A DNA stretch of 64,000 bases from the NCBI RefSeq assembly GCF_018342065.1, contig NZ_JAFDOE010000003.1, positions 558,001 through 622,000 on the forward strand. Reading direction: 5' to 3'. Position 1 is the stretch's first letter. Each line of letters starts with the position of its first letter. Under the pieces are notes generated by a model. The model saw only the letters and a list, made by a program, of their open reading frames with translations. It made no database searches and was not told the origin of the DNA. The DNA is from Citrobacter sp. FP75. Lineage in GTDB: Bacteria > Pseudomonadota > Gammaproteobacteria > Enterobacterales > Enterobacteriaceae. A program made the position numbers and the translations under genes. Positions 26,135 to 40,431 of this stretch are shown here, piece by piece.

Positions 26135-26230
26135 ATCTTGCATTAGCGAATGAACGTAACACATTGTTTCGTGGCTGATAAAGCATATCGTGGTTAAAAA
26201 CTATCAGAGCGAGCAGATAGGGGATTGGCA

Positions 26231-27175
26231 ATGAAAGTATTGGTGACTGGTGGTACCGGGTTTCTTGGTACTGCTTTAGTCCAGGCGTTGAAATCATCGG
26301 GGCATCAGGTGATATTAACAACGCGTCGGCAAGAAGATATTGAACAGGGAATTTACAACCTGGGTGATATTTCAGCGGAAACCAACTGGATAAACCTTCT
26401 GCAAGGATGCGATACCGTCATTCATACCGCGGGAAGGGCGCATGTCTTGAATGATAATGCTCAGGATGCATTAGCGGAATTTCGTCGTGTTAATCGCGAC
26501 GCGACATTGAAGTTAGCTAAAGACTCGGCCAGCTGCGGCGTAAAGCATTTTATTTTCGTCAGTTCGATTGGGGTGAACGGCAATGCCACATCAGGAACCC
26601 CCTTTACTGAAGCGTCAGAGCCTCGGCCAACTTCTGACTACGCCATTTCTAAATTTGAGGCTGAGCAAAGTCTGCGGCAAACCTTTACCAATAGCGAAAT
26701 GGCGGTAACCATTGTCCGTCCGGCGCTGATCTGTGGTGAAAATGCGCCAGGTAATATCCAGCGCCTGTTAAAACTGGTGTCGAAAAATCTGCCGTTACCG
26801 TTTAAAAACGTCAAAAACAAACGTGCGCTGGTGTCGCTGGACAACGTTGTCAGCTTTATTAATGAATGCGTCGTGAATGATAAGTCGAAAAATCAGCTCT
26901 ACCTGCTCGCCGATGCAGAGCGACCTTCAACCGAGGATATGATTAACGCCTTTGCGACTGGAATGGGTATTCACGCAAAAATTATCTATTTCCCGAAGAA
27001 CGTCCTGAAATTATTACTTTCGGCCGTGGGGAAAGCTGGAATTTACGATCAGTTATTCGGTGATCTTGAAGTTGATGCCAGTAAATCGAGAGATCAACTG
27101 CACTGGACACCGCCGATAACGTTGCATGAAACTATGAAAAAAACGGCGAAATATTATATCGAAGGTAATAAATAA
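26231..27175 (+). CDS. WbpV-like UDP-4-keto-sugar reductase / NAD-dependent epimerase
   Basis: 314 residues. An extended SDR: GGTGFLG at residues 7-13 for NAD(P), Ser111-Ser112 and Tyr137-x3-Lys141 (YAISK) in the active site. The tail NVKNKRALVSLDNVVSFI resembles WbpV/WbpK, which reduce UDP-4-keto-6-deoxy-GlcNAc from WbpM to UDP-D-QuiNAc or UDP-D-FucNAc. A UDP-GlcNAc 4-epimerase (Gne) is the alternative name for such proteins. With a WbpL-like transferase directly downstream and a WbpM-like dehydratase nearby, reductase is the better reading. ATG 26231 is used; a TTG two codons upstream is possible. Confidence 0.75.
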   Translation: MKVLVTGGTGFLGTALVQALKSSGHQVILTTRRQEDIEQGIYNLGDISAETNWINLLQGCDTVIHTAGRAHVLNDNAQDALAEFRRVNRDATLKLAKDSASCGVKHFIFVSSIGVNGNATSGTPFTEASEPRPTSDYAISKFEAEQSLRQTFTNSEMAVTIVRPALICGENAPGNIQRLLKLVSKNLPLPFKNVKNKRALVSLDNVVSFINECVVNDKSKNQLYLLADAERPSTEDMINAFATGMGIHAKIIYFPKNVLKLLLSAVGKAGIYDQLFGDLEVDASKSRDQLHWTPPITLHETMKKTAKYYIEGNK

Positions 27176-28218
27176 TGTTGGATTTAGGGATCGTAATATT
27201 CGCATTTTTAGTGTCATGTGCACTGACCTGGGGATTACGCGGTTATGCGATTAAACATAACGTGATTGACCGACCAAACCAGAGAAGCTCGCATTCTGTG
27301 CCGACTCCGCGTGGGGGGGGGGTGGCTATTGTCCTGACGCTTTTAGCCGCGCTGATGTGGTTTTATTTCAGCAACTCGCTGACGGTAGATGGCTTCTTAG
27401 GTTTGTTCATTCCGGGGTTAATTGTAGCCGTAATCGGGTTCCTGGATGACCACGGTCATATTGCGGCACGCTGGCGTCTGCTGATGCATTTCCTGGCTGC
27501 GGCAATTGGCCTGTATTTCTTAGGTTCTTTCCCGATTATTACTCTGTTTGGTTACGATCTCTCCTTATCATGGATTGGGATGACTCTGGGCTGCTTCTAT
27601 TTGGTCTGGATGTTGAATTTATACAATTTCATGGATGGGATTAACGGTTTAGCCAGTTCGGAAGCGATCACCTTTGCGGCAAGCAGTGCGATGTTAATGG
27701 TCGTCAACCAGTATATGCTTGCTCCTGGTAGCATCTATCCGCTGACGCTTGCCCTGGCCGGCGCTGCTGCAGGTTTTATTGTCTGGAACTTCCCGGCTGC
27801 CAAAATCTTTATGGGGGATGCCGGAAGCGGTTTCCTCGGAATAACCATCGGGCTGATGATCCTCCATATTGCAAAAGTCGATTCACACTTCTTTATTGCA
27901 GAGTTATGTTTGCTGGGTGTCTTCATCGTCGACGCTACAACCACACTGCTGCGTAGAGTGGTTGCCGGTAAGAAAGCCTATGAAGCGCATGCGAGCCATG
28001 GTTATCAGAACTTGGCCCGGAAATATGGTAGTCATGTTCCGGTGACGCTGATGGCGGTTGCCGTTAACCTGCTCTGGCTCTTACCAATTGCTTATCTGAT
28101 TGCAGCTGCCAAAATTGATGGCCTTGTGGGACTGATTATCGCCTGGTTACCACTGTTCTTTGTTGCATTCAAATGTGGTGCTGGCGTGAAAGACAAAGAG
28201 AGCAACGTCAATGCATGA
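27175..28218 (+). CDS. WbpL/WecA-like undecaprenyl-phosphate sugar-1-phosphate transferase
   Basis: 347 residues, about ten membrane helices. Polyprenyl-P N-acetylhexosamine-1-P transferase motifs in order: PRGGG (45-49), GFLDDHG with Asp91-Asp92, NLYNFMDGINGL (148-159), FMGDAGSG with Asp215, and the HASHGYQ His motif near 272-275. It would start a glycan by moving QuiNAc-, FucNAc- or GlcNAc-1-phosphate to undecaprenyl phosphate on the inner membrane. It closely resembles the WbpL/WbcO branch rather than WecA. Start overlaps the upstream stop (TAATG). Its PRGGG codons form a ten-base G tract (27313-27322), which may allow slippage. Confidence 0.85.
   Translation: MLDLGIVIFAFLVSCALTWGLRGYAIKHNVIDRPNQRSSHSVPTPRGGGVAIVLTLLAALMWFYFSNSLTVDGFLGLFIPGLIVAVIGFLDDHGHIAARWRLLMHFLAAAIGLYFLGSFPIITLFGYDLSLSWIGMTLGCFYLVWMLNLYNFMDGINGLASSEAITFAASSAMLMVVNQYMLAPGSIYPLTLALAGAAAGFIVWNFPAAKIFMGDAGSGFLGITIGLMILHIAKVDSHFFIAELCLLGVFIVDATTTLLRRVVAGKKAYEAHASHGYQNLARKYGSHVPVTLMAVAVNLLWLLPIAYLIAAAKIDGLVGLIIAWLPLFFVAFKCGAGVKDKESNVNA
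27313..27322 (+). repeat. Uninterrupted G10 tract inside the initiating transferase gene
   Basis: Ten consecutive G residues code for Gly47-Gly49 and the first base of Val50 of the PRGGG motif, all as GGG, a rare glycine codon in enteric genes. The reading frame is intact with ten G. Gain or loss of one G would frameshift the gene after 49 of 347 codons. Confidence 0.9.
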
Positions 28219-28771
28219 CCTGATGATTTTGGGGGCTGGTGGCCATGGACGCACGCTATGCGAAATGGCCAGACTACTGGGCTATGCGGATATTGTGTTT
28301 CTCGATGAGAATGCATCCCTTTGCCATGAGACCAACAAACTCATCATTGGTAAAATTTCAGAGCTACCGTTACACATCAACAGTGCTAATAACGTCGTTA
28401 TTGGCATTGGAAATAATAAAGTCAGAGAACAACTCTATCAGCAGGTTATTAGCCTAGGTATCCAACCTGCCACGCTTATACATCCGTCTGCATTTGTTAG
28501 CCCGTCGGCAACGATAGCTGATGGTTCAGTGGTATTAGCGGGAGCGGTGGTGGGTGCCAACGCAACATTAGGTGCGGGTACAATTGTAAATAGCCATTCG
28601 ACGGTAGATCACGATTCTATTCTCGGCGATTTTGCTCACTTAGGTGTTGGTGTTCATCTTGCCGGCAGTGCTGATATTGGGAAATCAGCTTTTCTGCAGG
28701 CTGGTACAGTGGGTGGCTATAATGCAAAAGTGGACGATTACTCAGTGTGTCCTGCTGGTACTATTTTATAA
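28211..28771 (+). CDS. NeuD/PglD-family sugar O/N-acyltransferase
   Basis: 186 residues. An N-terminal Rossmann-like domain starts LMILGAGGHGR, followed by a left-handed beta-helix from about residue 90 (IHPSAFVSPSATIADGSVVL), with the likely catalytic His in STVDHDS. Relatives acetylate amino sugars (PglD) or sialic acid (NeuD). It stops at CPAGTIL, lacking the usual final coil ending in GVPAK, so the C terminus is short. No 4-aminotransferase gene of PglE type is next to it, so the substrate is unclear. It overlaps the upstream gene by eight bases. Confidence 0.75.
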   Translation: MHDLMILGAGGHGRTLCEMARLLGYADIVFLDENASLCHETNKLIIGKISELPLHINSANNVVIGIGNNKVREQLYQQVISLGIQPATLIHPSAFVSPSATIADGSVVLAGAVVGANATLGAGTIVNSHSTVDHDSILGDFAHLGVGVHLAGSADIGKSAFLQAGTVGGYNAKVDDYSVCPAGTIL

Positions 28772-28809
28772 ACTGAAGGCAAGCTTTAACGAGGCGGCTA
28801 GTTTTTAGT

Positions 28810-30696
28810 ATGCTAACTTATTTAATATCTTTACCAAGACCGATAAAACGAATTATCACGTTATCTATTGATATTGTACTGCTCTTATGCGCATTTTGGT
28901 TTGCGTTTTGGGTCCGTATTGATTCGATGACACCGATATATAGTACTTCACATTGGTTATTTATTTTTTCAATAATATTTGTCACTTTGGCAATCTTTAT
29001 CAAGCTGGGGCTTTATCGCGCGGTTATCCGATATATTACGGCTAAAATCCTGCTGGTGGTTGCCGTTGGGATGTTTACATCATCCGTACTGCTTGTTATT
29101 GCGGCGTTCTATACCAATTTATATCTGCCAAGAACTATTCCATTCATTTACTTCTCATTCGGTGTACTTTTAATTGCTGGGTCAAGGCTTGGAATGAGAA
29201 TGTTAGTCAATCGCGGATTGAACTTGGGGACTCGAGTGGTAATTTATGGCGCGGGTGCATCGGGCCGTCAGTTGCTACCAGCACTGAGCCAGATGGATGA
29301 ATACTATCCGGTCGCTTTTGTTGATGATAATCGTGCTTTGCAAGGACAGGTGATTCACGGTGTTAGTGTATTTGCGCCTGAGAAACTCGCGTGGCTAGTT
29401 GAGAAATACGAAGCGAAGAAAATTCTGCTGGCAATGCCAAGTGCGAGTAGGGCAAGAAAGAATGAAGTGATCAAAACGCTGGAGGGTTTACCTTGCGAGG
29501 TACTTTCTATTCCCGGGATGGTCGATCTTGTAGAGGGTAAAGCACGTATTGATGCCTTACGCAAAGTGGTTATTACCGACCTATTGGGACGAGACCCGGT
29601 ATCACCGATTCCTGAATTAATATCCCGCAATATCACCGGGAAAACGGTTATGGTTACAGGAGCGGGTGGATCTATTGGCTCTGAATTATGTCGGCAGATT
29701 ATAAAAAATAATCCTACTCAGCTTATTTTATTTGAGCTGTCAGAGTTCTCACTTTATTCCATTGATTCTGAACTAAATAGCCTAATACGCAGTCAAAAGT
29801 TACACGTTAAGATTTACCCAATTCTTGGGAACGTACAGGATAAAGAACATCTTGAAAGGTTAATCAAGGCATTCAACGTCGATACTATTTATCACGCAGC
29901 GGCGTATAAGCATGTACCGCTCGTTGAGTTCAATGTTATCGATGGTGTTCGTAATAATATTTTCGGCACTCTGTGCTGTGCTCAAGCGGCAGCTCAATGT
30001 GGCGTTGAAAATTTTGTCTTAATTTCTACAGATAAAGCGGTACGACCTACAAATACAATGGGTGCGACCAAACGTATGGCGGAGCTGGTGCTGCAGGCAT
30101 TAGCGAAGGAACACAGCAAGACCTGCTTTAGCATGGTTCGTTTTGGCAACGTGCTGGGTTCGTCGGGCTCGGTTGTGCCACTGTTTGAAAAACAAATTGC
30201 CAGCGGTGGGCCGGTTACACTCACTCACCAAGATATCACGCGCTACTTTATGACCATTCCAGAGGCCGCACAGTTGGTGATTCAAGCGGGCGCCATGGGG
30301 ACTGGGGGGGATGTTTTCGTACTGGATATGGGAGAACCGGTGAAAATACTGGATCTCGCGCACCGGATGATTGCGCTGCAAGGTCTCTCTATTTGTGATG
30401 AAAAGAATCCGTATGGCGATATTGCTGTCAAAACAACGGGTTTACGACCAGGTGAAAAGCTTTATGAAGAATTGCTTATCGGCGACAATGTGTCCACCAC
30501 ACAGCATCCGCGTATAAAAACCGCTAATGAAGTTATGCTGCCGTGGAACGAGATGAGCAATATCCTTGCAGAACTCGACAACGCCTGTCGTGAATTCGAC
30601 TATGAGCGTGTACGTGAGATACTTTTACAAGCACCTGCAGCTTTCAATCCAACCGATGACATCTGTGATTTACTCTGGAAAGAAAAAATGAGTTAA
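28810..30696 (+). CDS. WbpM-like UDP-GlcNAc 4,6-dehydratase (membrane-bound, long form)
   Basis: 628 residues, the length of WbpM/PglF-type enzymes. Four N-terminal membrane helices (about 12-130) lead to a first Rossmann domain (YGAGASGRQL) and a second catalytic SDR domain with TGAGGSIGSE at 283-292. The active site reads STDKA (406-410) and Met417-x3-Lys421, where most SDRs have Tyr; Met in this spot is typical of WbpM. It turns UDP-GlcNAc into UDP-4-keto-6-deoxy-GlcNAc for the WbpV-like reductase at 26231. A Shine-Dalgarno is poor (GAGG at 28791, far upstream). Confidence 0.85.
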   Translation: MLTYLISLPRPIKRIITLSIDIVLLLCAFWFAFWVRIDSMTPIYSTSHWLFIFSIIFVTLAIFIKLGLYRAVIRYITAKILLVVAVGMFTSSVLLVIAAFYTNLYLPRTIPFIYFSFGVLLIAGSRLGMRMLVNRGLNLGTRVVIYGAGASGRQLLPALSQMDEYYPVAFVDDNRALQGQVIHGVSVFAPEKLAWLVEKYEAKKILLAMPSASRARKNEVIKTLEGLPCEVLSIPGMVDLVEGKARIDALRKVVITDLLGRDPVSPIPELISRNITGKTVMVTGAGGSIGSELCRQIIKNNPTQLILFELSEFSLYSIDSELNSLIRSQKLHVKIYPILGNVQDKEHLERLIKAFNVDTIYHAAAYKHVPLVEFNVIDGVRNNIFGTLCCAQAAAQCGVENFVLISTDKAVRPTNTMGATKRMAELVLQALAKEHSKTCFSMVRFGNVLGSSGSVVPLFEKQIASGGPVTLTHQDITRYFMTIPEAAQLVIQAGAMGTGGDVFVLDMGEPVKILDLAHRMIALQGLSICDEKNPYGDIAVKTTGLRPGEKLYEELLIGDNVSTTQHPRIKTANEVMLPWNEMSNILAELDNACREFDYERVREILLQAPAAFNPTDDICDLLWKEKMS

Positions 30697-30802: not shown

Positions 30803-31888
30803 GTGAAAATTTTGGTCACTGGTGGGGCAGGCTTTATTGGGTCTGCAGTTGTACGACATATTATCAATAATACGCAGGATTCCGTCGTCAACGTCGATAA
30901 ACTGACTTACGCAGGTAATCTTGAATCGCTGGCCGACGTCGCGCACAGTGATCGCTATCGTTTTGAACATGCCGACATCTGCGACAGTAGTGCGATGGCG
31001 CGCATTTTTGCCGATCACCAGCCAGATGCGGTGATGCACCTGGCGGCAGAGAGCCATGTTGACCGTTCGATCACCGGCCCGGCAGCTTTTATTGAAACCA
31101 ACATTGTGGGTACTTATGTACTGCTGGAAGCCAGTCGCCAGTACTGGTCAGCATTAGGCGCTGAGAAGAAAGCCGCATTCCGTTTCCACCATATCTCTAC
31201 CGATGAAGTGTACGGTGACCTTCCTCACCCTGATGAAGCAGCGAAGGGCAGTGAACTGCCGCTGTTTACTGAAAAAACAGCCTACGCACCAAGCAGTCCT
31301 TACTCCGCTTCAAAAGCATCCAGTGACCACCTGGTTCGCGCCTGGCTGCGTACCTACGGTTTCCCGACTATTGTGACCAACTGTTCTAACAACTACGGTC
31401 CTTACCACTTTCCGGAAAAACTGATCCCGTTGGTTATCCTCAACGCCCTGGAAGGCAAAGCCCTGCCGGTATACGGTAAAGGCGATCAGATCCGCGACTG
31501 GTTGTACGTTGAAGACCATGCACGCGCGCTCTATACAGTGGTGACACAGGGTAAAATTGGTGAAACCTACAACATCGGCGGCCACAACGAGAAGCAAAAC
31601 CTGGATGTGGTACACACTATTTGCTCTCTGCTGGATGAAATAGTTCCGAAAGAAGGTTCGTATTGCGACCAGATAACCTACGTTGCTGACCGCCCGGGGC
31701 ACGATCGTCGCTACGCCATTGATGCCGAGAAAATTGGTCTGGAACTGGGCTGGAAACCGCAGGAAACCTTTGAAAGTGGCATCCGTAAAACTGTGGAATG
31801 GTATCTGGCCAACAGCCAGTGGGTGGAGAATGTGAAAAGCGGTAGCTACAAATCCTGGATTGAGGAAAACTACGGGGATCGTGGGTAA
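30803..31888 (+). CDS. rmlB: RmlB, dTDP-glucose 4,6-dehydratase
   Basis: 361 residues, same as E. coli RmlB. It makes dTDP-4-keto-6-deoxy-glucose. [11 protein letters not shown] binds NAD; Thr133-Asp134-Glu135 (STDEVYGD) and YSASKAS (Tyr-x3-Lys) are the catalytic groups. The start is GTG, as in many enteric rmlB genes, and its stop overlaps the rmlA start (TAATG). GC content is high, about 60 percent in a sampled line, unlike every gene downstream. No rmlC or rmlD follows, so the product feeds the amino-sugar branch, not rhamnose. Confidence 0.97.
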
Positions 31889-32751
31889 TGAAAGGAATTA
31901 TTTTAGCGGGTGGTTCAGGAACCCGGTTATATCCAATTACAATGGGTGTATCAAAGCAGTTGCTGCCAATTTACGACAAGCCAATGATTTACTATCCTCT
32001 CTCGGTATTAATGTTGGCTGGTATCAAAGAAATTCTCATCATTACTACATCGGAAGATCAATCAGGGTTTATCCGTTTACTTGGTGATGGGAGCCAATTT
32101 GGTATAGAAATACAATACGCAATTCAACCGAGCCCTGATGGTTTAGCACAGGCATTCATTATTGGTGAGAGTTTTATTGGTAATGATTCTGTTTGTCTTG
32201 TTCTTGGCGATAATATTTTCTTTGGACAAGGGTTTACTCCAAAGTTGAAACTTGCTAGTGAGCGCCCTTGTGGTGCTACGGTATTCGGTTATCAAGTAAT
32301 GGATCCTGAGCGGTTTGGTGTTGTTGAATTTGATCAGGAATTCAAAGCATTAAGTATTGAAGAAAAACCAACTAAACCAAAATCAAATTGGGCTGTGACT
32401 GGTCTATATTTCTATGATAATGATGTAATAGAAATAGCTAAGAATATCAAGCCATCATCGCGCGGCGAGCTTGAAATAACTACCGTTAATGAAATTTATT
32501 TAAAAAATAACGCTTTGAGTGTTGAACTGCTTGGCCGTGGTTTTGCTTGGCTTGATACTGGGACTCACGATAGCTTGATTGAAGCAGGAAGTTTTGTAGA
32601 GACTGTTCAGAAACGGCAGGGGATGATGGTAGCATGTCTCGAAGAAATAGCTTGGCGAAATGACTGGCTGACTAAAGACAGTTTATACGAAAGGGGTCAG
32701 CAACTCTGTAAAAATCATTATGGTCAATATTTATTAAAATTAGTAGGGTGA
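31888..32751 (+). CDS. rmlA: RmlA, glucose-1-phosphate thymidylyltransferase
   Basis: 287 residues. It makes dTDP-glucose from dTTP and glucose-1-phosphate. The nucleotide loop [24 protein letters not shown] with the metal-binding Asp, and [20 protein letters not shown] match RmlA throughout. Codon use is visibly AT-rich compared with rmlB, so this is where the foreign part of the locus begins. Confidence 0.96.
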
Positions 32752-32754
32752 ATT

Positions 32755-33150
32755 ATGAATGTCCAACTTATTCCATTACAGATCCATGGTGATGATAGAG
32801 GTGCTCTTGTTTCTTTAGAAAGAGATAAGAATATAGATTTTGAGATTAGACGTGTTTACTACATTTTCAATACAAAAAGAGGGGTTGTTAGGGGCTATCA
32901 TGCACATAAAAACCTGAAGCAGTTAGTTGTTCCCGTCAGAGGTTCATGCCGCTTTACTTTAGATAATGGTTGTGAACGAGTAAGTATCCTCTTGGATAAT
33001 CCTGCGCAAGGGTTGCTTGTTGACTCGTTAATCTGGAGGGAGATGTCAGACTTCTCTGACGATTGCGTATTAATGGTATTAGCCAGTAATGAATATGATG
33101 AATCTGATTATATCAGAGATTATGATGTATTTAAATTGGCGGTGAAATAA
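32755..33150 (+). CDS. FdtA/QdtA-type dTDP-4-keto-6-deoxyglucose 3,4-ketoisomerase
   Basis: 131 residues, a single cupin domain. It moves the keto group from C4 to C3 so that a 3-amino sugar can be formed. GYHAHK (His49, His51) holds the catalytic histidines; [11 protein letters not shown] near residue 113 is a family signature. Two residues reported to set the product stereochemistry disagree here: Arg15 (in DDRG) is FdtA-like (galacto), while Arg95 (in IWREM) is QdtA-like (gluco). So the product may be dTDP-Fuc3N or dTDP-Qui3N precursor. Four bases after rmlA; stop overlaps the next gene (TAATG). Confidence 0.85.
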
Positions 33151-33611
33151 TGTTTATACATAAGTTAAGTGATGTACAGTCACAATCTATAGGTGAAGGT
33201 ACGAATATATGGCAGTTTGTTGTTGTTCTTAAGAATGCAGTAATAGGCAAGAATTGTAATATCTGTACTAGTTGCTTTATAGAGAATGATGTTGTAATTG
33301 GTGACTCAGTGACTGTTAAATCTGGAGTTTATATCTGGGATGGGGTAAGGATACATGATAATGTATTTATTGGTCCCTGCGTTGCTTTTACTAATGATAA
33401 ATATCCGCGCTCAAAAAACCACAATGCCAATCTCTTTGAAACAATAATTGGTGAAAATTCATCGGTCGGTGCGAACTCGACTATTCTCCCAGGGGTTAGA
33501 ATTGGGCGTAATTGTATGATTGGGGCAGGTTCAGTCGTAACTAAAGATGTGCCAGACAATGCACTAGTTTTAGGTAATCCAGCAAACATTGTGAAGTTTT
33601 TGGAGGCATAA
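33150..33611 (+). CDS. dTDP-3-amino-3,6-dideoxyhexose N-acetyltransferase, LbH fold
   Basis: 153 residues, almost entirely hexapeptide repeats of a left-handed beta-helix ([34 protein letters not shown]), ending in [12 protein letters not shown]. It resembles FdtC, WlbB and the N-terminal domain of WxcM, which acetylate the 3-amino group. QdtC enzymes are usually longer, which slightly favours Fuc3NAc. Placed between the isomerase and aminotransferase genes, with one-base overlaps on each side. Confidence 0.8.
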
Positions 33612-34714
33612 TGATTGATTTTCTTAACTTACAGAAGTCTAACTCTCGTTATAATGATGAATTAATTAAAGCTGCAGTGAGAGTTATTGAAAGTGGGTGG
33701 TATATCTCTGGCTCAGAATTAGATTCCTTTGAAGAGAATTTTGCAAAGTATTGTAACACCACATATGCAATCGGTGTTGCTAATGGACTTGATGCCTTGA
33801 CATTAACACTTAAAGCATGGCTAGAATTGGGAAAAGTAAGACCAAATGATGAGGTGATTGTCCCTGCGAACACATACATAGCATCGATCCTTGCCATCAG
33901 TGAAGCTGGTCTAAAACCTATTTTAGTTGAGCCGAGTGAGTCTAGCTATAATCTTTCAATTGAGAATATTAAATCCCAAGTTACTCCCAAGACGCGAATC
34001 ATACTTCCTGTTCATCTCTATGGTTTGATCTCTCCAATGGATGAAATCATGAGTTTTTCAAGGGATAATAACTTTTTAGTATTAGAAGATAGCGCTCAGG
34101 CTCATGGATCTTCAATTAATGGCAAAAAAGCAGGAAGTTGGGGGGATGCAGCCGGATTTAGTTTCTATCCGGGAAAAAATTTAGGAGCACTTGGTGACGC
34201 TGGTGCTATAACGACTAATGACACCGAATTAGCCGAAACTGTTAGCTATTTGAGGAATTATGGGTCAAGAGTAAAATACAAACATGAATTTAAAGGTGTA
34301 AATAGTCGTCTGGATGAGATTCAGGCGGCATTTCTTAATGTAAAACTGAAGTATTTAGATGAAGATACTCGCATTAGGAGAAGTATCGCTAATCGTTATA
34401 TAAATGAAATCAACAACGAATTAATTATACTCCCAAAGACTACCTATGAAGAAAATCATGTTTGGCACCTTTTCGTTATTAGAGTGAAAAACAGAGATGC
34501 GCTTCAACGGTACCTGAGCGATAACAATATTCAAACGGTAATTCATTATCCAACACCTCCCCATCGTCAACAGGCGTATAAAGAGTTCAAGGGGTTGAGT
34601 TTCCCTTTGAGTGAAGAATTACATCGTGAAGTAATTTCTATTCCAATGGACCCTACTCTCACAGAAGAACAGGTTAGCTATATCATTGGTGTATTGAATA
34701 AATTTAGTTGCTAA
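33611..34714 (+). CDS. FdtB/QdtB-type sugar 3-aminotransferase (DegT/DnrJ/EryC1)
   Basis: 367 residues. A PLP-dependent aminotransferase with Asp160 in [12 protein letters not shown], and the PLP-binding Lys189 in [17 protein letters not shown]. It puts an amino group (from glutamate) at C3 of the dTDP-3-keto-6-deoxyhexose made by the 32755 isomerase; the 33150 enzyme then acetylates it. The result is dTDP-Fuc3NAc or dTDP-Qui3NAc for the O unit. TAATG overlap with the previous gene. Confidence 0.9.
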
Positions 34715-34716
34715 TC

Positions 34717-35973
34717 ATGAATTTAATTAAAGTCAGTTTTTATAATGGAATCTCTGTAATAATTAAAATGCTGACTATGCTGGGACTTAACAAAGTCCTA
34801 GCTATTTATGTCGGCCCCAGTGGTTATGCCATAATAGGTCAGTATCAAAGTTTTATTCAAACACTTGCTACATTTTCCGCGGGCTCAATTGCAAATGGAA
34901 TTACAAAATATACTGCTCAGAATGCAAATGAGGACCAAGAATTAATACGGGTATGGAAAACAGCAGGGACTGTCAGTATCATTTCGAGTTTATTTATTTC
35001 AGTGATGATATTGTTTCTGTTTAAAAATATAAATGCTAGATTTTTTAATAATACAATAGACAATAACCTATCATATTGGCTTGCTGTTTCGTTTTTATTT
35101 ATGATGTTGAATAGTTACTTTATGGCTATTCTGAATGGAATGAAAGCAATAAAACCTTATGTATTGCTTAATATATCCAGTAGTGTGTTAGTGTTAATTG
35201 TTACTGGCCTTTTTGCATTTAGCATGGGGCTAAAAGGAGCACTGATAGCATTAACCATAAATCAATCATTGAATTTTATAATAACTTTTTCATATTTTGT
35301 TAGACAGAAATGGTTCCAGGTTAGTTTTTTGGTGGGACGTTTAGATAAAGTCATAATTAAAGGTCTTAGCCGATTCTTCTTTATGGCGTTGTTCTCATCT
35401 TTAGCTGTTCCTTTAACACAGATGTTCCTGAGAAATTTTATTGGTTCTAATGTTTCTTGGGAGGTTTCTGGTTATTGGGAAGCCATTAACAGGATAAGTG
35501 CAATAAATATAATGCTGGCAACAACCACACTAACACTTTATTATTTGCCAAAATTATCTGAAATAAATGAGAAAGCAAAATATAAATATGAATTAATCAA
35601 CATATCAAAACTTTTAATACCAGTTACTGCTATTGGGTGCTTTGGCGTTTTTTATTTTAAATTTTACATCATAAATATACTCTTTACACCTTCATTTATT
35701 AACATGTCGCCATTGTTCGGTTGGCAAATGCTTGGGGATTTTTTCAAAGTTTTCAGCTGGATTTTCTCGTTTGCCTTATTGACGAAAGAAAAATGGAAAA
35801 TCTTTATAGCGTGTGAAATCTTATCTGCGATTGTCTTGACTGTGTCAACAAGTACGATCGTGTATTTTATGTCGTGGCATTATCTTTCTTTGGCATACGC
35901 AGCAACATATTTGATATATCTAATATTCACATCTATATTTTTCTATTATTTTATATATAAAAAGGCAATCTAG
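34717..35973 (+). CDS. wzx: Wzx, O-unit flippase, WzxE-like
   Basis: 418 residues with about twelve membrane helices, AT-rich. MNLIKVSFYNGISVIIKMLT and GSIANGITKYTAQNAN resemble WzxE, the flippase for the enterobacterial common antigen unit, which carries a 4-acetamido-4,6-dideoxygalactose. It would flip the undecaprenyl-linked O unit. ATG 34717 is two bases after the fdtB-like stop; the frame is also open to an upstream TTG at 34708. The closeness to WzxE is judged by eye. Confidence 0.88.
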   Translation: MNLIKVSFYNGISVIIKMLTMLGLNKVLAIYVGPSGYAIIGQYQSFIQTLATFSAGSIANGITKYTAQNANEDQELIRVWKTAGTVSIISSLFISVMILFLFKNINARFFNNTIDNNLSYWLAVSFLFMMLNSYFMAILNGMKAIKPYVLLNISSSVLVLIVTGLFAFSMGLKGALIALTINQSLNFIITFSYFVRQKWFQVSFLVGRLDKVIIKGLSRFFFMALFSSLAVPLTQMFLRNFIGSNVSWEVSGYWEAINRISAINIMLATTTLTLYYLPKLSEINEKAKYKYELINISKLLIPVTAIGCFGVFYFKFYIINILFTPSFINMSPLFGWQMLGDFFKVFSWIFSFALLTKEKWKIFIACEILSAIVLTVSTSTIVYFMSWHYLSLAYAATYLIYLIFTSIFFYYFIYKKAI

Positions 35974-37290
35974 ATGGAGTTTACTCTAAACCTTCTTATA
36001 ATAATGTTGAGTTTTATTCCTGGATACTATCTGGGTGTATTTAGATTCAAACAACTCAATTATTATTGTGTGCTTTATTGGTCTATGTTGATATTCTGTG
36101 TTGTTGGTTCGTTTATTATATATTCCGGTGCTATGGATGATTCATTCTTTATCGAACCAATTGCAAATAATGTTGAAGCGAAAAGTCTGGGCATATTAAT
36201 CACTACCCTTTCTTTTTTAATATTTTTTGTATCTGCTTTTATTATTGAGGTTTTTTATTCTTTATATACGCGTTATAGATTTGAAAAAGTAAAATGGGAA
36301 CTTCATTACTCACGCCCAATAATCATGAGCAGTAATACGGTATTACTAGCACTGTGTGTTTTATCAATTGTACTAGTTATATATTATATTGTGTCTATTT
36401 ATCCTGCGCCATTACTTATTGTTTTTCAAGGAGCTTCAGCAGATCAGGTTGCTGTGCGCCGATTAGAGGTAACAAAAGATTACTCGGGAATTGGTTATTT
36501 TAAAACGTTAGCAGGTATCTTACCTGTAATTTTATCTTATTACTGTTTTATCTCATATCTAAAATTCAAAAAACACCTTCCTCTTTTTATTTTTATTGCT
36601 ATCATCTCGATGCTGACGTTGACAATAAATGGTGAGAAGGCGCCTCTTGTCTTCTATTTTTTGGGGCTTTTAGTGTCGTATTCTTCGGTCAGGGAAGTTA
36701 GCAAGAAAGTTTATGTGTTTTCATTGTTATTGATTTTTTCTTTTATATTGACAATGTATATCATTCTTTTCCAATTTGATGATCTGGAATATATTCTTAA
36801 TATTCTTACTGAGAGATTATTTATAGCTCAGGAAGCCGCTGTTTTTTATGCTGCAGACTACTTTTCTACCCACAGCGCGCTGGGTTTATCCAGCATGGAT
36901 ACCGTTTTTAACAAAATACTAAATATTATCCCTGCGCCCAGAGCGTCAGAGTTATTTATGTACCAATATTTGCCAGGCATGGTTGAAAATGGTGGCTGGA
37001 ATGTGAATGGCTTTTTTGCTCATGAGACTTTCTCAAATTTCGGTTTTATGGGCGTTATTTTTGGAAGTACATATGGTGGTATTGTAAATAGCTTGCTATG
37101 CATATATTTTAGAACAAGAGAAAAAACGTTATTAACAATGAGTTTTTATAGCTTTTACATTGTATCTATAACAACAGTACTCAGTAGTTTCAATGCAATG
37201 CTTTTTAATACACAATTAATACTTGTATTCATCATTTATATATTATTGTCATTTATCGATAGGGGGAAAAAACATGCTGTACCAAAGTGA
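35974..37290 (+). CDS. wzy: Wzy, O-antigen polymerase
   Basis: 438 residues with about eleven membrane helices and a larger soluble loop in the middle (about 150-165 and 270-345). There is little motif conservation in this class, so the name comes from topology and place: next to wzx and between sugar genes and transferases. It would join flipped O units at the reducing end in the periplasm. AT-rich. It begins directly after the wzx stop (one-base spacing). Confidence 0.8.
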   Translation: MEFTLNLLIIMLSFIPGYYLGVFRFKQLNYYCVLYWSMLIFCVVGSFIIYSGAMDDSFFIEPIANNVEAKSLGILITTLSFLIFFVSAFIIEVFYSLYTRYRFEKVKWELHYSRPIIMSSNTVLLALCVLSIVLVIYYIVSIYPAPLLIVFQGASADQVAVRRLEVTKDYSGIGYFKTLAGILPVILSYYCFISYLKFKKHLPLFIFIAIISMLTLTINGEKAPLVFYFLGLLVSYSSVREVSKKVYVFSLLLIFSFILTMYIILFQFDDLEYILNILTERLFIAQEAAVFYAADYFSTHSALGLSSMDTVFNKILNIIPAPRASELFMYQYLPGMVENGGWNVNGFFAHETFSNFGFMGVIFGSTYGGIVNSLLCIYFRTREKTLLTMSFYSFYIVSITTVLSSFNAMLFNTQLILVFIIYILLSFIDRGKKHAVPK

Positions 37291-38152
37291 CAGGGTTTCT
37301 ATCATTATAATATCATATAATCATGATCAATTTATAGAAGATGCCATTGAAAGTGTATTGTGTCAAACTTATAAGAATATTGAGCTTATTATCGTCGATA
37401 ACAATTCATCAGACTCCACGCCTTTGATTCTGAGAAAATATAATAGTAAAGATAACATAAAAATTATTCATCTTGAAGAAAATATTGGTATTACTGGTGG
37501 CATCAATGAAGGATTAAAACATTCTAGTGGAGAATTTGTCAGTTTTTTCGCTAGCGATGATATTATGATGTCGAATAGAATCGAATTGCAGGTTAATGCG
37601 TTAAAACATGAGCCTGAGGCTGTTGCTTGTTTTGGTAATATGATGAGAATTAACGGAGATGGTTCGATCAATAAGCGAGGTTTGCTGCCAGTTGTGGATT
37701 TTAAATGGTGGACTTTTGACGACTTACTAACAAATAGGATATGTCTGTACTCTCCAACTCAACTATATAGAGCTGATATCTTTAGGGATAACTCAATAAT
37801 TTTTCCGAAAGACATAAGAATTGAAGATATTTGGATTTATTTCAAACTTCTCAATATGGGCTACAAGTTCATTACCATACCATATCTTTTGACCATGTAC
37901 CGAGTTCATAATAATAACACTCATACCCGGTACAAAATGATGATGCTTGAGAAAATAAAAATATTGGATGAATATAATGATAAGGATTTTTATCAAAAAG
38001 CGCTTCGTTTTATCTATCTCGAACATTTCTCTAATTTTGGCTCAACTTCCAAGAAAGATGCATTAAGGTTGCTTCCTAAGGTTATATTAAGTATTAAATC
38101 TAAATATTTGTATATCGGTCTAGCTAGGCTTTTTTTCGATTGGAGGAAGTAA
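37274..38152 (+). CDS. GT2 glycosyltransferase of the O-antigen locus
   Basis: 292 residues. RVSIIIISYNHDQF and VDNNSSDSTP make the nucleotide-binding start, and ASDD near residue 95 takes the DXD metal-binding place; IEDIWIY in the second half is the likely base region. ATG 37274 has AGGGGG seven bases before it and overlaps the end of wzy by 17 bases; a further upstream ATG at 37223 lies inside wzy with no such site. It adds one sugar of the O unit, which one is unknown. Confidence 0.85.
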   Translation: MLYQSDRVSIIIISYNHDQFIEDAIESVLCQTYKNIELIIVDNNSSDSTPLILRKYNSKDNIKIIHLEENIGITGGINEGLKHSSGEFVSFFASDDIMMSNRIELQVNALKHEPEAVACFGNMMRINGDGSINKRGLLPVVDFKWWTFDDLLTNRICLYSPTQLYRADIFRDNSIIFPKDIRIEDIWIYFKLLNMGYKFITIPYLLTMYRVHNNNTHTRYKMMMLEKIKILDEYNDKDFYQKALRFIYLEHFSNFGSTSKKDALRLLPKVILSIKSKYLYIGLARLFFDWRK

Positions 38153-38820
38153 TGTTTAAACATGTATACGTTGATTTGTGTGATACTTTAATTAAAGGAA
38201 ACACGACGTTCATGTTCTTGGATTCCTTTTTTAGTCGACATTATAATAATCGTTATTGGTTTTATAGAAAGATTAGCACGTCATTAATAATGAGAGTTCT
38301 ATTCAAATTATTGCTCTCAGCTAAAATTGATCTAAACAGAAGAATCGCCATTCGTTATTTAAATGGATACAACATAGATTCTCTTAGAGAACATGTGAAA
38401 TGGATGCTAGATAATAATGTTTTTGTGGAGAATAAGGAACTTGTTGAAATCATACATTGTGCTAAAAGCAAACACATTCCAGTAACGATTATTTCTGCCT
38501 CTTTAGATTTCATTGTTGAAGTAGTAGCATCTTGTTATTCAACTGATTATTTCAGTAGCAAACTTTTGTATAAGGATGGATGCTGTCAGGGACGTATCAT
38601 GCTTGACCTTCTCTTTGAAAAGGATAAGGTTTTTAATAATGTTGAGAAAGCCAGCGATACTTACTGTTTTATAAGCGATAACATTCAAGATGTTAAAGTG
38701 CTAAAATCTTGTAAGTATGGTTTTGGCGTTCCGAATTTAAAAAATAGAAAGGTATTCATTGATAATGATATTGAGCTTATCAATTATGATAAGCTTATTA
38801 ACCTGATTAAGAGTGAATGA
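38152..38820 (+). CDS. HAD-superfamily protein paired with a UbiA-like gene
   Basis: 222 residues. An HAD-IB-like protein: motif I reads VDLCDTLIKGNT (Asp8 nucleophile, Thr12), motif II is IISAS, motif IV is ISDNIQD. The usual second Asp of the DxDxT motif is Cys10 here, which could weaken phosphatase activity. With the UbiA-like gene starting inside its stop (ATGA) it looks like a two-gene unit, as for the phosphatase that removes the 5-phosphate from polyprenyl-phosphoribose. Alternative: a regulatory or inactive partner. SD GGAGGA at 38142-38147; TAATG overlap. Confidence 0.7.
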   Translation: MFKHVYVDLCDTLIKGNTTFMFLDSFFSRHYNNRYWFYRKISTSLIMRVLFKLLLSAKIDLNRRIAIRYLNGYNIDSLREHVKWMLDNNVFVENKELVEIIHCAKSKHIPVTIISASLDFIVEVVASCYSTDYFSSKLLYKDGCCQGRIMLDLLFEKDKVFNNVEKASDTYCFISDNIQDVKVLKSCKYGFGVPNLKNRKVFIDNDIELINYDKLINLIKSE

Positions 38821-39611
38821 TTGTGAAAGAATATAGTATTTTTTATATTCCATTCTGGTATTCGATACAAACCAGATTTCGAACAATTCCAAGATTTTGT
38901 TCATGGGTTATAATCTATTTAATTCCTGTTTTATTGTGTTTCTTTTTTGTTTCCTCGATCTTTAATTATATTTTTTTGTTGAAATCATTTTTGGGCGTTG
39001 TATTAGTCTACAATTTATATGAGATTGGATATATATATAATGATGCAGAGACAATAAAAAAAGAATCATCACCTACGATGAGGCTTAGCAACTCTCAAAT
39101 ACAATTTTATGAAAATAACAAGAGGAATATTTATAACTTCCGTTTTTTTGTTGCAGCAGTGATAACATTTTGTCTGTCTTTCTATGATGGGGTATTGCTA
39201 TTCTTGCTTGCTGCTTGGGCAATAATTCCAGCTTACATGTTGTATAACTCCGTCAGGAGTAGATTAAATCTACCATTGCATTTCGTGTTGGTAACGCTGA
39301 GGTATTGTTCACCAGTATTACTATTTACGGGGTGCGATAATATTTATATCGGTTTTGTAATGATTTTATTGTTCCCACTTATAAATACACTTGAAAGATG
39401 TGCTGAAAGTAGATTTAAGCTGAATTTTTTTAAAGATTTTTTTCTAGTAAATAGGAAAAGTGGACGTTATATATATTACTTCACTTTACTTGTTATGGGA
39501 CTTGTCTGCATATATGTGTTTGGGGATTACATATACTTTGTTTTTTCTTGCTATGCTTTGTATTATATGATTTTTAGGTTCTTATCCGCACAGGTAAATA
39601 TTAATGAATGA
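38817..39611 (+). CDS. UbiA-family membrane prenyl-phosphate transferase (DPPR synthase-like)
   Basis: 264 residues, about seven to nine membrane helices. The polar motif NDAETIKKESSPTMRL at residues 75-90 fits the NDxxDxxxD motif and following PTxR of the UbiA branch that contains decaprenylphosphoryl-5-phosphoribose synthase (Rv3806c); Thr79 and Glu83 replace the second and third Asp. NTLERCAESR near residue 188 could be the second acidic motif. This branch uses PRPP. In the O-antigen setting it suggests addition of ribofuranose or a derived pentofuranose, directly or as a polyprenyl-linked donor. A farnesyl-type function is less likely here. ATGA overlap with the HAD gene. Confidence 0.65.
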   Translation: MIVKEYSIFYIPFWYSIQTRFRTIPRFCSWVIIYLIPVLLCFFFVSSIFNYIFLLKSFLGVVLVYNLYEIGYIYNDAETIKKESSPTMRLSNSQIQFYENNKRNIYNFRFFVAAVITFCLSFYDGVLLFLLAAWAIIPAYMLYNSVRSRLNLPLHFVLVTLRYCSPVLLFTGCDNIYIGFVMILLFPLINTLERCAESRFKLNFFKDFFLVNRKSGRYIYYFTLLVMGLVCIYVFGDYIYFVFSCYALYYMIFRFLSAQVNINE

Positions 39612-40431
39612 TAGTCCGCAATCATTTAGTGTATTGATGTCTTTATACGATAAAGAAAAACCAGATTATCTTGACTCATGCTTTGCAAGTATTGCAAATC
39701 AAATATTGTTGCCTGCGGAGGTTATTTGTGTTTTTGATGGCCCACTTAATGCTGAGTTAGAAGATGTTGTTTCAAAATGGATTAAGGTTTTGAATATAAA
39801 CATTGTGAGACTTCCTGTTAATGTTGGATTGGGTAAAGCTCTTAATAAAGGACTTGAACATTGCTCTTTTAACATTGTGGCTCGAATGGATTCAGACGAT
39901 ATTTGTTTGCCAGAGCGTTTTCAAAAACAAATCCCCCTTTTCTTTAGTGATGAAGAACTTGTCTTGCTGGGAGCTGGCATTGATGAGTTTGAAACATGTG
40001 AAAACATAGTTAAATCTGTCCGCAGTGTTCCATCATCTCATTCTGAAATTCGAGAGATATGTAAGGTGAAAAACCCGTTCAATCATATGACTGTGGTTTT
40101 TAGGAAAAATGAAATTTTATCACTTGGTGGTTATAAACATCATTTTTTAATGGAGGATTATAACCTTTGGCTTCGAGTTATTGCTAAAGGATATAAAGTA
40201 GGAAATATTAATAGTTCACTTGTTAAAGCTCGGGTTGGTAATGGGATGGTCGGTAGGCGAAAGGGAATTAAATATATTAAAAGTGAGTGGAAAATTTTTC
40301 TGCTAAAGAAGAACCTTGGACTGCAATCTTTTTTTCCCGGGGTAGGTGTTTTTTTGATGCGCTCGGTCCCTCGCTTGCTTCCTAAAACTTTGCTCTCAAT
40401 GCTTTACAGTATGTCAAGGACTAAGAGCTAA
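39604..40431 (+). CDS. GT2 glycosyltransferase, last gene of the O-antigen locus
   Basis: 275 residues. FSVLMSLYDKEKPDYL and VFDGP start the nucleotide fold; ARMDSDD near residue 98 is the metal-binding motif; MEDYNLWLRV is the likely catalytic region. The pattern is like the AmsE and related Gal/GalNAc/GlcNAc transferases, but the sugar is not fixed by it. It overlaps the UbiA-like gene by eight bases. The locus ends 184 bases before gnd, in AT-rich DNA. Confidence 0.85.
   Translation: MNDSPQSFSVLMSLYDKEKPDYLDSCFASIANQILLPAEVICVFDGPLNAELEDVVSKWIKVLNINIVRLPVNVGLGKALNKGLEHCSFNIVARMDSDDICLPERFQKQIPLFFSDEELVLLGAGIDEFETCENIVKSVRSVPSSHSEIREICKVKNPFNHMTVVFRKNEILSLGGYKHHFLMEDYNLWLRVIAKGYKVGNINSSLVKARVGNGMVGRRKGIKYIKSEWKIFLLKKNLGLQSFFPGVGVFLMRSVPRLLPKTLLSMLYSMSRTKS

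Follow-up and report, generated by a model that had tools for sequence, protein, structure and literature searches.

A HAD phosphatase and a UbiA-like membrane protein as a candidate two-gene ribofuranosyltransferase in the O-antigen cluster of Citrobacter sp. FP75

The O-antigen gene cluster of Citrobacter sp. FP75 raises the question of what two overlapping genes, enclosed by two glycosyltransferase genes, contribute to the O unit. We investigated this cluster within 64,000 nucleotides of contig NZ_JAFDOE010000003.1 (positions 558,001 to 622,000 of the forward strand; this whole stretch is called the window, and all coordinates below refer to it). One of the two genes encodes a HAD-type phosphatase (HAD), the other a membrane protein (MEM), and the initial annotation had suggested that the pair makes ribofuranose (Ribf) from phosphoribosyl pyrophosphate (PRPP) for the O unit. 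Our results strengthen this suggestion by the colinearity of the cluster with that of E. coli O5, the profile similarity and weaker fold similarity of MEM to PRPP-using enzymes, the company of HAD and MEM in 18/18 loci, and a count of glycosyltransferases that is one too few. The pair very probably supplies Ribf to the O unit; with less confidence, we favour a two-gene ribofuranosyltransferase that acts by direct transfer from PRPP to the lipid-PP-linked glycan. The features concerned are:

38152..38820, + strand: HAD-type phosphatase, 222 aa, predicted phosphoribosyl-glycan 5'-phosphatase (PRP-like); Pfam PF12710, 5.5e-11
38817..39611, + strand: MEM, UbiA-like membrane protein, 264 aa, predicted PRPP-dependent glycan phosphoribosyltransferase (from model, Foldseek and hhalign to PPPRS)
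39039..39065, + strand: MEM motif NDAETIKKE, residues 75-83, aligned to NDxxDxxxD of PPPRS/DPPRS
39072..39086, + strand: MEM motif PTMRL, residues 86-90 (R89 in 18/18 loci, P86 in 17/18)
39393..39395, + strand: MEM Glu193, aligned with Lys191 of Rv3806c

The ATG of HAD begins on the last base of the stop codon of the preceding glycosyltransferase gene GT2a (38152), and its TGA stop (38818-38820) overlaps the ATG of MEM (38817) in an ATGA; MEM ends with a stop codon at 39609-39611, and the start of the following gene GT2b (39604) falls within its 3' end. These coordinates and the overlap, together with the PF12710 match and the surrounding Wzx/Wzy cluster, confirm that two ATGA-coupled genes for a HAD-like and a membrane protein lie in an O-antigen locus.

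Homologs of MEM are rare and scattered, occurring in 4/17 genomes of the genus, 4/246 of the family, 4/394 of the order, 1/369 of the class and 4/398 of the phylum (overlapping samples, with the window's own genome counted in each). We compared 18 distinct loci: the window, E. coli O5, O185, O63 and an unlabelled E. coli type, Morganella, Acinetobacter, two Niabella loci, L018-L023, L028, L099 and L100, with the near-identical clusters L019 and L020 from two genomes counted separately. Outside this set stand L002, the repeats L004 and L005 (O5), L027 (contig of L007) and L095 (type of L093), as well as the shorter pieces L006, L011-L017, L024-L026 and L096-L098 of counted loci. A HAD of this family is present in the cluster of MEM in all 18 loci and immediately upstream of it in 16; the exceptions are O63, where a glycosyltransferase gene and wzy lie between the two, and Acinetobacter, where an insertion sequence (IS) element separates them and HAD is shortened. 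Because the other cluster genes vary while the pair persists, we regard HAD and MEM as a functional unit. Both are under purifying selection relative to E. coli O5, with dN/dS values of 0.128 for HAD and 0.165 for MEM (0.074-0.131 for four neighbouring genes). The pair is also found outside Enterobacterales, i.e. in L009 and L010 (Niabella), L099 and L100. One further match, H143, lay beside a prophage tail gene and was discarded as a chance hit.

The remaining genes of the cluster, which allow the comparison with E. coli O5, are:

39604..40431, + strand: GT2b, predicted beta-galactosyltransferase that would make the acceptor (sugar putative); Pfam Glycos_transf_2, 3.1e-21
37274..38152, + strand: GT2a, predicted Qui3NAc transferase onto ribose (role putative); Pfam Glycos_transf_2, 1.9e-31 (translated from 37268)
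35974..37290, + strand: wzy, O-antigen polymerase; TIGR04370, 7.1e-14
34708..35973, + strand: wzx, O-unit flippase; PF01943, 6.1e-15
30803..34714, + strand: rmlB, rmlA, 3,4-ketoisomerase, hexapeptide acyltransferase and aminotransferase genes, the dTDP-Qui3NAc (or Fuc3NAc) pathway; Pfam/NCBIfam
26225..30696, + strand: four-gene block between galF and rmlB, without counterpart in the viewed O5 loci

The genes follow each other in the order rmlB, rmlA, 3,4-ketoisomerase, hexapeptide acyltransferase, aminotransferase, wzx, wzy, GT2a, HAD, MEM, GT2b, and then gnd, ugd and wzz. From rmlB to gnd the cluster is colinear with that of E. coli O5: the genes from rmlB to the aminotransferase gene are 83-91% identical to their O5 counterparts, and the following six genes, in the same order, are 75-85% identical to those of the O5 locus L001 (wzx 84.7%, wzy 77.4%, GT2a 80.3%, HAD 78.4%, MEM 75.0% and GT2b 81.1%). 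Among 5426 complete E. coli genomes the pair is present in 35 (one match over at least 80% of the length), and in the three of these that were viewed wzx and wzy are annotated as 'O5 family'. Other E. coli types carry it less often: the pair occurs in 6/5426 genomes for O185 (label seen in one, L003) and in 10/5426 for the unlabelled type (L093 and L095 viewed), and MEM in 5/5426 for O63 (label seen in one, L092). In the O5 strain E. coli X14-3 (L002) an IS1 replaces the stretch from the acyltransferase gene into MEM, so that the aminotransferase gene, wzx, wzy, GT2a, HAD and part of MEM are gone. RefSeq holds no coding sequence for MEM in L001, L003, L004, L005, L093 and L095 (E. coli O5, O185 and the unlabelled type), and a hypothetical protein is annotated at the MEM gene in O63 (L092) and in the O5 strain SCZE5.

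The E. coli O5ac O antigen contains alpha-GalNAc-(1-2)-beta-Qui3NAc-(1-3)-beta-D-Ribf (PMC9912281), and O5ac and O5ab have a tetrasaccharide unit (PMC7496230). Qui3NAc agrees with the rml and ketoisomerase genes. The fourth sugar of O5 is a beta-galactose (beta-Gal) between Ribf and GalNAc. A tetrasaccharide needs three transfers after the first sugar, and the O5 cluster is annotated with two glycosyltransferase genes; the third transfer therefore falls to the pair. In the window, too, two GT2 genes are counted between rmlB and gnd, as the initial annotation had said, and the gene at 27175-28218 adds a WecA-like phosphoglycosyltransferase. The proposal of the initial annotation that HAD and MEM may account for a sugar is backed by this count, which without the pair is one glycosyltransferase short.

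The comparison of MEM with known enzyme families points to the PRPP-using branch of UbiA-type enzymes. In a profile-profile comparison (hhalign), 18 MEM sequences matched 32 PPPRS sequences with a score of 41.5 (P 3.9e-5) and a probability of 70.6%, a value reached after adding four MEM homologs, two of them distant; none of 200 block-shuffled controls reached this score (maximum 21.2). For comparison, UbiA and CyoE score 47.0 and 53.8 with the PPPRS profile but only 18.8 and 15.1 with the MEM profile. On this scale the MEM profile resembles the PPPRS/DPPRS branch nearly as well as PPPRS resembles UbiA. In a panel of single membrane proteins, 10/29 PPPRS outscored the best of 45 other proteins (Mann-Whitney P 4.6e-5, which serves as a guide only, since the 29 PPPRS are mutually related and many are long fusions). 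The panel came from the loci collected in the analysis, not from a whole genome, and among the 45 non-PPPRS proteins score and length correlated with r 0.37. As judged from these alignments, the similarity of MEM to PPPRS is above chance, and the resemblance of NDAETIKKE and PTMRL to the UbiA branch of decaprenylphosphoryl-5-phosphoribose synthase (DPPRS), which had first drawn attention to MEM, holds at the level of the profile score and the 0/200 shuffles.

The predicted structure points in the same direction. The AlphaFold model of MEM (built with 12 sequences) reached a pLDDT of 86.9 and a pTM of 0.86, and Foldseek returned 46 rows from the PDB. All 11 rows with a probability above 0.4 were a UbiA homolog or a membrane phosphoribosyltransferase: nine were chains of a UbiA homolog from an archaeon (0.44-0.92), and two were the entries 8j8j and 8j8k (0.60 and 0.57), which are donor- and acceptor-bound forms of the membrane phosphoribosyltransferase; TM values went up to 0.55, and the next-best row of another type had a probability of 0.23. 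The predicted fold thus weakly suggests that MEM may belong to the UbiA superfamily. A quinone or heme UbiA identity was considered and rejected. The search of the own genome with PF01040 returned three proteins, not including MEM, which we take to be UbiA, CyoE and MenA. Their scores with MEM (13.0, 13.2 and 16.0) are no higher than those of decoys (best other decoy 20.5), so that the match to such an enzyme that would have spoken against the initial annotation did not appear.

To relate MEM to the contacts described for Rv3806c, residues were mapped via the numbering of ORF15, the fused enzyme of Citrobacter youngae O1, minus 174; this offset is consistent for Rv3806c Tyr70, Asn73, Asp77, Lys87, Arg90, Tyr138, Lys143 and Lys191. 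MEM Y72, N75, T79, E83, Y140, S145, R162 and E193 align with Rv3806c positions 70, 73, 77, 81, 138, 143, 160 and 191, and D76 with 74; ORF15 N247, D248 and D255 align with MEM N75, D76 and E83. N75-D76 fell on N-D in all three alignments, and E83 on D255 in two, being shifted in the first (12 versus 5 sequences). In Rv3806c, Tyr70 contacts the 5-phosphate, Asn73 a Mg ion and the ribose, and Asp77 the Mg ion; Tyr138, Lys87, Arg90 and Lys143 contact the pyrophosphate, and Lys191 the phosphate of the decaprenyl lipid acceptor (PMC10994848). Among the 18 MEM sequences Y72, N75, R89, N144 and R162 are invariant; D76 is Asp and P86 is Pro in 17, position E83 is acidic in all 18, and position Y140 is Tyr in 13, Phe in 4 and Leu in 1. 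Position E193, which corresponds to Lys191, is Glu in 12, Thr in 3, Ile in 2 and Gly in 1, and basic in none. By this mapping MEM seems to keep part of the donor site, to have lost or moved one Mg ligand together with most of the pyrophosphate site, and to lack the ligand of the lipid phosphate.

HAD is SerB-like and shows the fold and the catalytic motifs of HAD phosphatases. Its searches matched phosphoserine phosphatases and similar proteins, and its AlphaFold model (pLDDT 91.7) found HAD and SerB structures as top Foldseek matches (best E 1.9e-9). D8 and C10 (motif I), K157 and D176-N177-x-x-D180 (motif IV) are invariant in 11/11 aligned homologs. Against the PRP of ORF15 type the HAD profile gave weak matches of 7.8e-5 and 9.1e-5 (small protein sets), and no structure named PRP was among the 22 matches of one HAD search or the 50 Foldseek matches listed.

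Ribosylation from PRPP has been described in two forms. In the first, a cytoplasmic gPRT-PRP acts on the glycan itself and gives beta-Ribf (PMC11127046, PMC11231755, PMC12096443, PMC10299916); in the second, a UbiA-type PPPRS makes undecaprenyl-P-Ribf, which is used with a flippase and a GT-C, mostly for alpha side chains (PMC11127046). The pair combines the protein types of the PPPRS pathway with the setting of the gPRT-PRP enzymes. Like the pair as we read it, ORF15 of C. youngae O1, from the three-component pentofuranose pathway (Kelly et al. 2024, PMC11127046), comprises a HAD-type phosphoribose phosphatase and a UbiA-type PRPP transferase in an O-antigen locus; unlike the pair, it is a single fused protein whose product is a lipid donor, and its partners for alpha side chains are a MATE flippase and a GT-C. 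MEM, in contrast, is encoded by a separate gene, is not recognised by Pfam and belongs to a cluster without a second flippase gene, and the Ribf of O5 is beta and lies in the chain. There was no sign of the second (MATE-type) flippase and the GT136 GT-C that stand beside the synthase in the three-component pathway: Wzx is the sole flippase among the cluster proteins scanned, and the one search for the GT-C gave no more than part of an OpgB protein (see below). A fused PRP-PPPRS protein of 483 aa with a Pfam UbiA match is present in 2/17 genomes of the genus, where its gene lies beside gnd (L060:7550-9001 and L061:7272-8723). D18, N247, D248, D251, D255, R366 and E369 of the L060 protein coincide with the numbers published for ORF15. 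The surroundings of the fused gene in L061 agree with the three-component pathway: they include a gene resembling an epimerase and another for a large polytopic protein that ends in DUF7024, the only domain recognised in it. From its position and this end, the polytopic protein is presumably the GT-C.

Rv3806c would resemble MEM in the UbiA-like fold and the PRPP donor, both of which are predictions for MEM, and the positions of Tyr70 and Asn73 are kept in 18/18 MEM sequences. MEM differs from it in that the Asp77 position is never acidic, the Lys191 position never basic and the positions of the pyrophosphate site seldom basic; moreover, Rv3806c uses decaprenyl phosphate as acceptor (PMC10994848), and its phosphatase partner is not a HAD (PMC11127046). 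The gPRT-PRP enzymes of Klebsiella O4/O7, Hib (Bcs3) and Campylobacter (Cj1432), like the pair as we read it, move phosphoribosyl from PRPP to a glycan and then dephosphorylate it with a HAD, giving beta-Ribf (PMC11231755, PMC10299916, PMC12096443, PMC11127046). Unlike the pair, their transferase is a cytoplasmic domain of another fold, compared here by description only, whereas MEM is polytopic. None of the 46 Foldseek rows for MEM was named gPRT. Kelly et al. 2022 reportedly describe the gPRT-PRP ribofuranosyltransferases.

For the pair we infer PRPP as donor and the glycan as acceptor, with the following order of steps. MEM would take 5-phosphoribose from cytoplasmic PRPP and attach it, with inversion, to a hydroxyl group of the O unit as this grows on undecaprenyl-PP; in O5, the beta-Gal added by GT2b would be the acceptor. 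HAD would then strip the 5-phosphate, giving beta-D-Ribf, GT2a would extend this Ribf with Qui3NAc, and Wzx and Wzy would complete the chain. A homolog of GT2b is 81% identical in O5, 38-52% in O185, the unlabelled type, Morganella, Acinetobacter, L022 and L028, and 24-29% in six loci, and is absent from three (16 loci compared); this suggests that GT2b may make the acceptor in O5 and in the loci with 38-52% identity. A beta-Ribf-(1-4)-beta-Gal element is present in the O antigens of E. coli O114 and Hafnia 1206 (PMC10609480); a literature search for the O63 polysaccharide structure found none. Direct transfer fits best: wzx is the cluster's only flippase gene, the Ribf of O5ac is beta, and in MEM the equivalent of Lys191 is never basic. 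DPPRS yields a beta-ribosyl product from PRPP by inversion (PMC10994848); with such inversion direct transfer would give beta-Ribf as in O5ac, and an inverting enzyme that uses a beta-linked lipid donor would give alpha-Ribf. Of the two routes between which the initial annotation did not choose, a lipid-linked donor and direct transfer, the evidence favours direct transfer and is not a proof of it.

Several observations weigh against this reading. MEM matched no UbiA model of Pfam or NCBIfam at E <= 1, and no model of either database reaches its cut-off on MEM; ten members of alignment A1, the window's MEM among them, had no Pfam match, PF01040 included, at E <= 10, with HMMER filters that remove most matches weaker than E 0.1. 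The check by PF01040 that the initial annotation had named thus came out negative for MEM and for the A1 members, and, because no UbiA model of Pfam or NCBIfam matches MEM, its UbiA resemblance is invisible to standard annotation. In the PDB nothing was found by a single-sequence phmmer search with MEM or by hmmsearch with its 10-sequence profile. Smaller profile comparisons of MEM with PPPRS were weak, with a probability of 25.7% for 12 versus 5 sequences and of 22.0% (score 32.1) for 14 and 32 sequences; in the controls for the 14-sequence profile, the reversed profile scored 12.4 and 0/100 shuffles came as high (maximum 24.6). The E-values of the 11 Foldseek rows (0.68-3.6) are not significant, and in E-value order PhoU proteins (ranks 3-5) stand above the membrane phosphoribosyltransferase (ranks 17-18). 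The structural comparison that the initial annotation had named thus gives a hint only.

Further points against it concern the active sites and the locus. At position T79, the counterpart of the Mg ligand Asp77, MEM has Thr, Ala, Leu, Val or Gly and an acidic residue in 0/18 sequences, and a Lys or Arg stands opposite Lys87 in only 3, opposite Arg90 in 1 and opposite Lys143 in 2 of 18. The Mg contact is assigned to Asp77 in the Rv3806c paper (PMC10994848) and to D255 in the ORF15 paper, where the D251A variant (the Asp77 position) remained active to some extent in vivo but was inactive in vitro (PMC11127046). Motif I of HAD is D-x-C, not D-x-D, in 18/18 loci, and the ORF15-type PRP, unlike this HAD, carries D-x-D. 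D-x-D is motif I in most HAD phosphatases. Ribf in the O unit of this strain is extrapolated, by way of the gene sequences, from the O5 structure, and the colinearity with O5 alone does not separate direct transfer from a lipid donor. The block at 26225-30696, which comprises genes for a short-chain dehydrogenase/reductase (SDR; 26225), the WecA-like phosphoglycosyltransferase (27175-28218), a NeuD/PglD-like acetyltransferase (28211) and a WbpM/PglF-like dehydratase (28810), is probably responsible for another first sugar, so that the first sugar of the O unit would differ from that of O5; it sets the window apart from E. coli O5, where the annotation between galF and rfbB shows an IS1 transposase only (L001) or nothing (L004). 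The absence of a second flippase refers to the cluster proteins scanned, as the whole genome was not searched for flippases or glycosyltransferases. Finally, in the papers examined we found no UbiA-type enzyme that glycosylates a glycan.

The most serious competitor of direct transfer, though an unlikely one, is a lipid-linked donor: MEM would make undecaprenyl-P-ribose-5-P from PRPP, HAD would turn it into undecaprenyl-P-Ribf, and another transferase, either a cytoplasmic GT2 or a periplasmic GT-C, would place the ribose. MEM does align with the PPPRS/DPPRS branch, the nearest characterised enzymes, C. youngae ORF15 and Rv3806c, make polyprenyl-P-linked phosphoribose (PMC11127046, PMC10994848), and ORF15, which joins a HAD-type PRP to a UbiA-type domain, is the fused counterpart of the pair (PMC11127046). 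However, both GT2 genes are required for the other two O5 linkages, the cluster holds a single flippase gene, the one search for a GT136-type GT-C, made with the presumed GT-C of L061, found only the C-terminal DUF7024 part of an OpgB protein, and no PPPRS match was present in the genome at E <= 1e-10. Inverting use of the beta-linked lipid (PMC10994848) would yield alpha-Ribf, whereas the Ribf of O5ac is beta (PMC9912281), and the Lys191 position, basic in 0/18 MEM sequences, lacks the residue that holds the lipid phosphate in Rv3806c.

Improbable, in our view, is a role of the pair in handling a sugar other than Ribf, PRPP-derived or not (e.g. an epimerised pentofuranose), or a precursor, with Ribf coming from elsewhere. 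The extra sugar genes between galF and rmlB, including the SDR at 26225, would fit such a role, and two older papers placed or suspected the Ribf genes outside the cluster (PMC4869667, PMC5560731). Yet the genes adjoining the pair are the two GT2 genes, wzy and gnd, with no epimerases among them, and O5 has Ribf and the same six genes without the block at 26225-30696. The earlier view of arabinofuranose as less likely also stands. It is more improbable still that MEM is no phosphoribosyltransferase at all and serves as an acyltransferase, flippase or scaffold, with HAD acting on another sugar phosphate. That no curated family reaches its cut-off on MEM is compatible with this, and a HAD-like and an acyltransferase-like gene were taken as makers of a modified rhamnose in Hafnia (PMC4869667); against it stand the profile, decoy-panel and fold results, the Tyr, Asn, Asp, Glu and Arg conserved in the region aligned with the active site, and the persistence of the pair while other genes change.

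The proposed ribofuranosyltransferase also bears on gaps in published clusters. In the excerpts of PMC11127046, PMC10299916, PMC11231755 and PMC4869667, a scope that does not include Kelly et al. 2022, we found no description of the pair; all beta-linked Ribf identified by the ORF15 authors is attributed there to the PRPP-using enzymes of their 2022 paper (PMC11127046). Hafnia alvei PCM1222, with Ribf in its O antigen, has a gene about 32% identical to a HAD of E. coli MS 119-7, beside a gene that was not firmly assigned; there were only two glycosyltransferase genes for three remaining linkages, and the Ribf gene was suggested to lie outside the cluster (PMC4869667). Its authors attributed both genes to the synthesis of a modified rhamnose, and they assigned the extra linkage to a gtr operon (PMC4869667). 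In our search the O5-type pair matched E. coli MS 119-7 along its full length. Presumably, the MS 119-7 HAD cited by these authors is that of the O5-type pair; our reading of the pair would then explain both gaps.

Two papers on O-antigen clusters of Ribf-containing strains found no Ribf genes in the clusters (PMC4869667, PMC5560731), and the pair is a concrete candidate for the genes missing there. If the proposal is true, the pair would account for how ribose, a sugar of several bacterial surfaces, reaches the O antigen, and it would be a third arrangement of PRPP-based glycosylation beside the cytoplasmic gPRT enzymes and the lipid-donor synthases. Its sequence could then serve as a marker to predict which surface polysaccharides contain Ribf, and its genes as a component in glycoengineering. 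There is a broader idea, for which we see the arguments evenly balanced: MEM would found a UbiA-fold family of membrane-embedded, PRPP-dependent glycosyltransferases that attach phosphoribose directly to O units linked to lipid-PP. Such a family, evolved from a lipid-donor synthase by a change of acceptor, would be a general source of main-chain beta-Ribf in the Wzx/Wzy O antigens of E. coli O5 and perhaps of O63, O185, Morganella, Acinetobacter and Hafnia.

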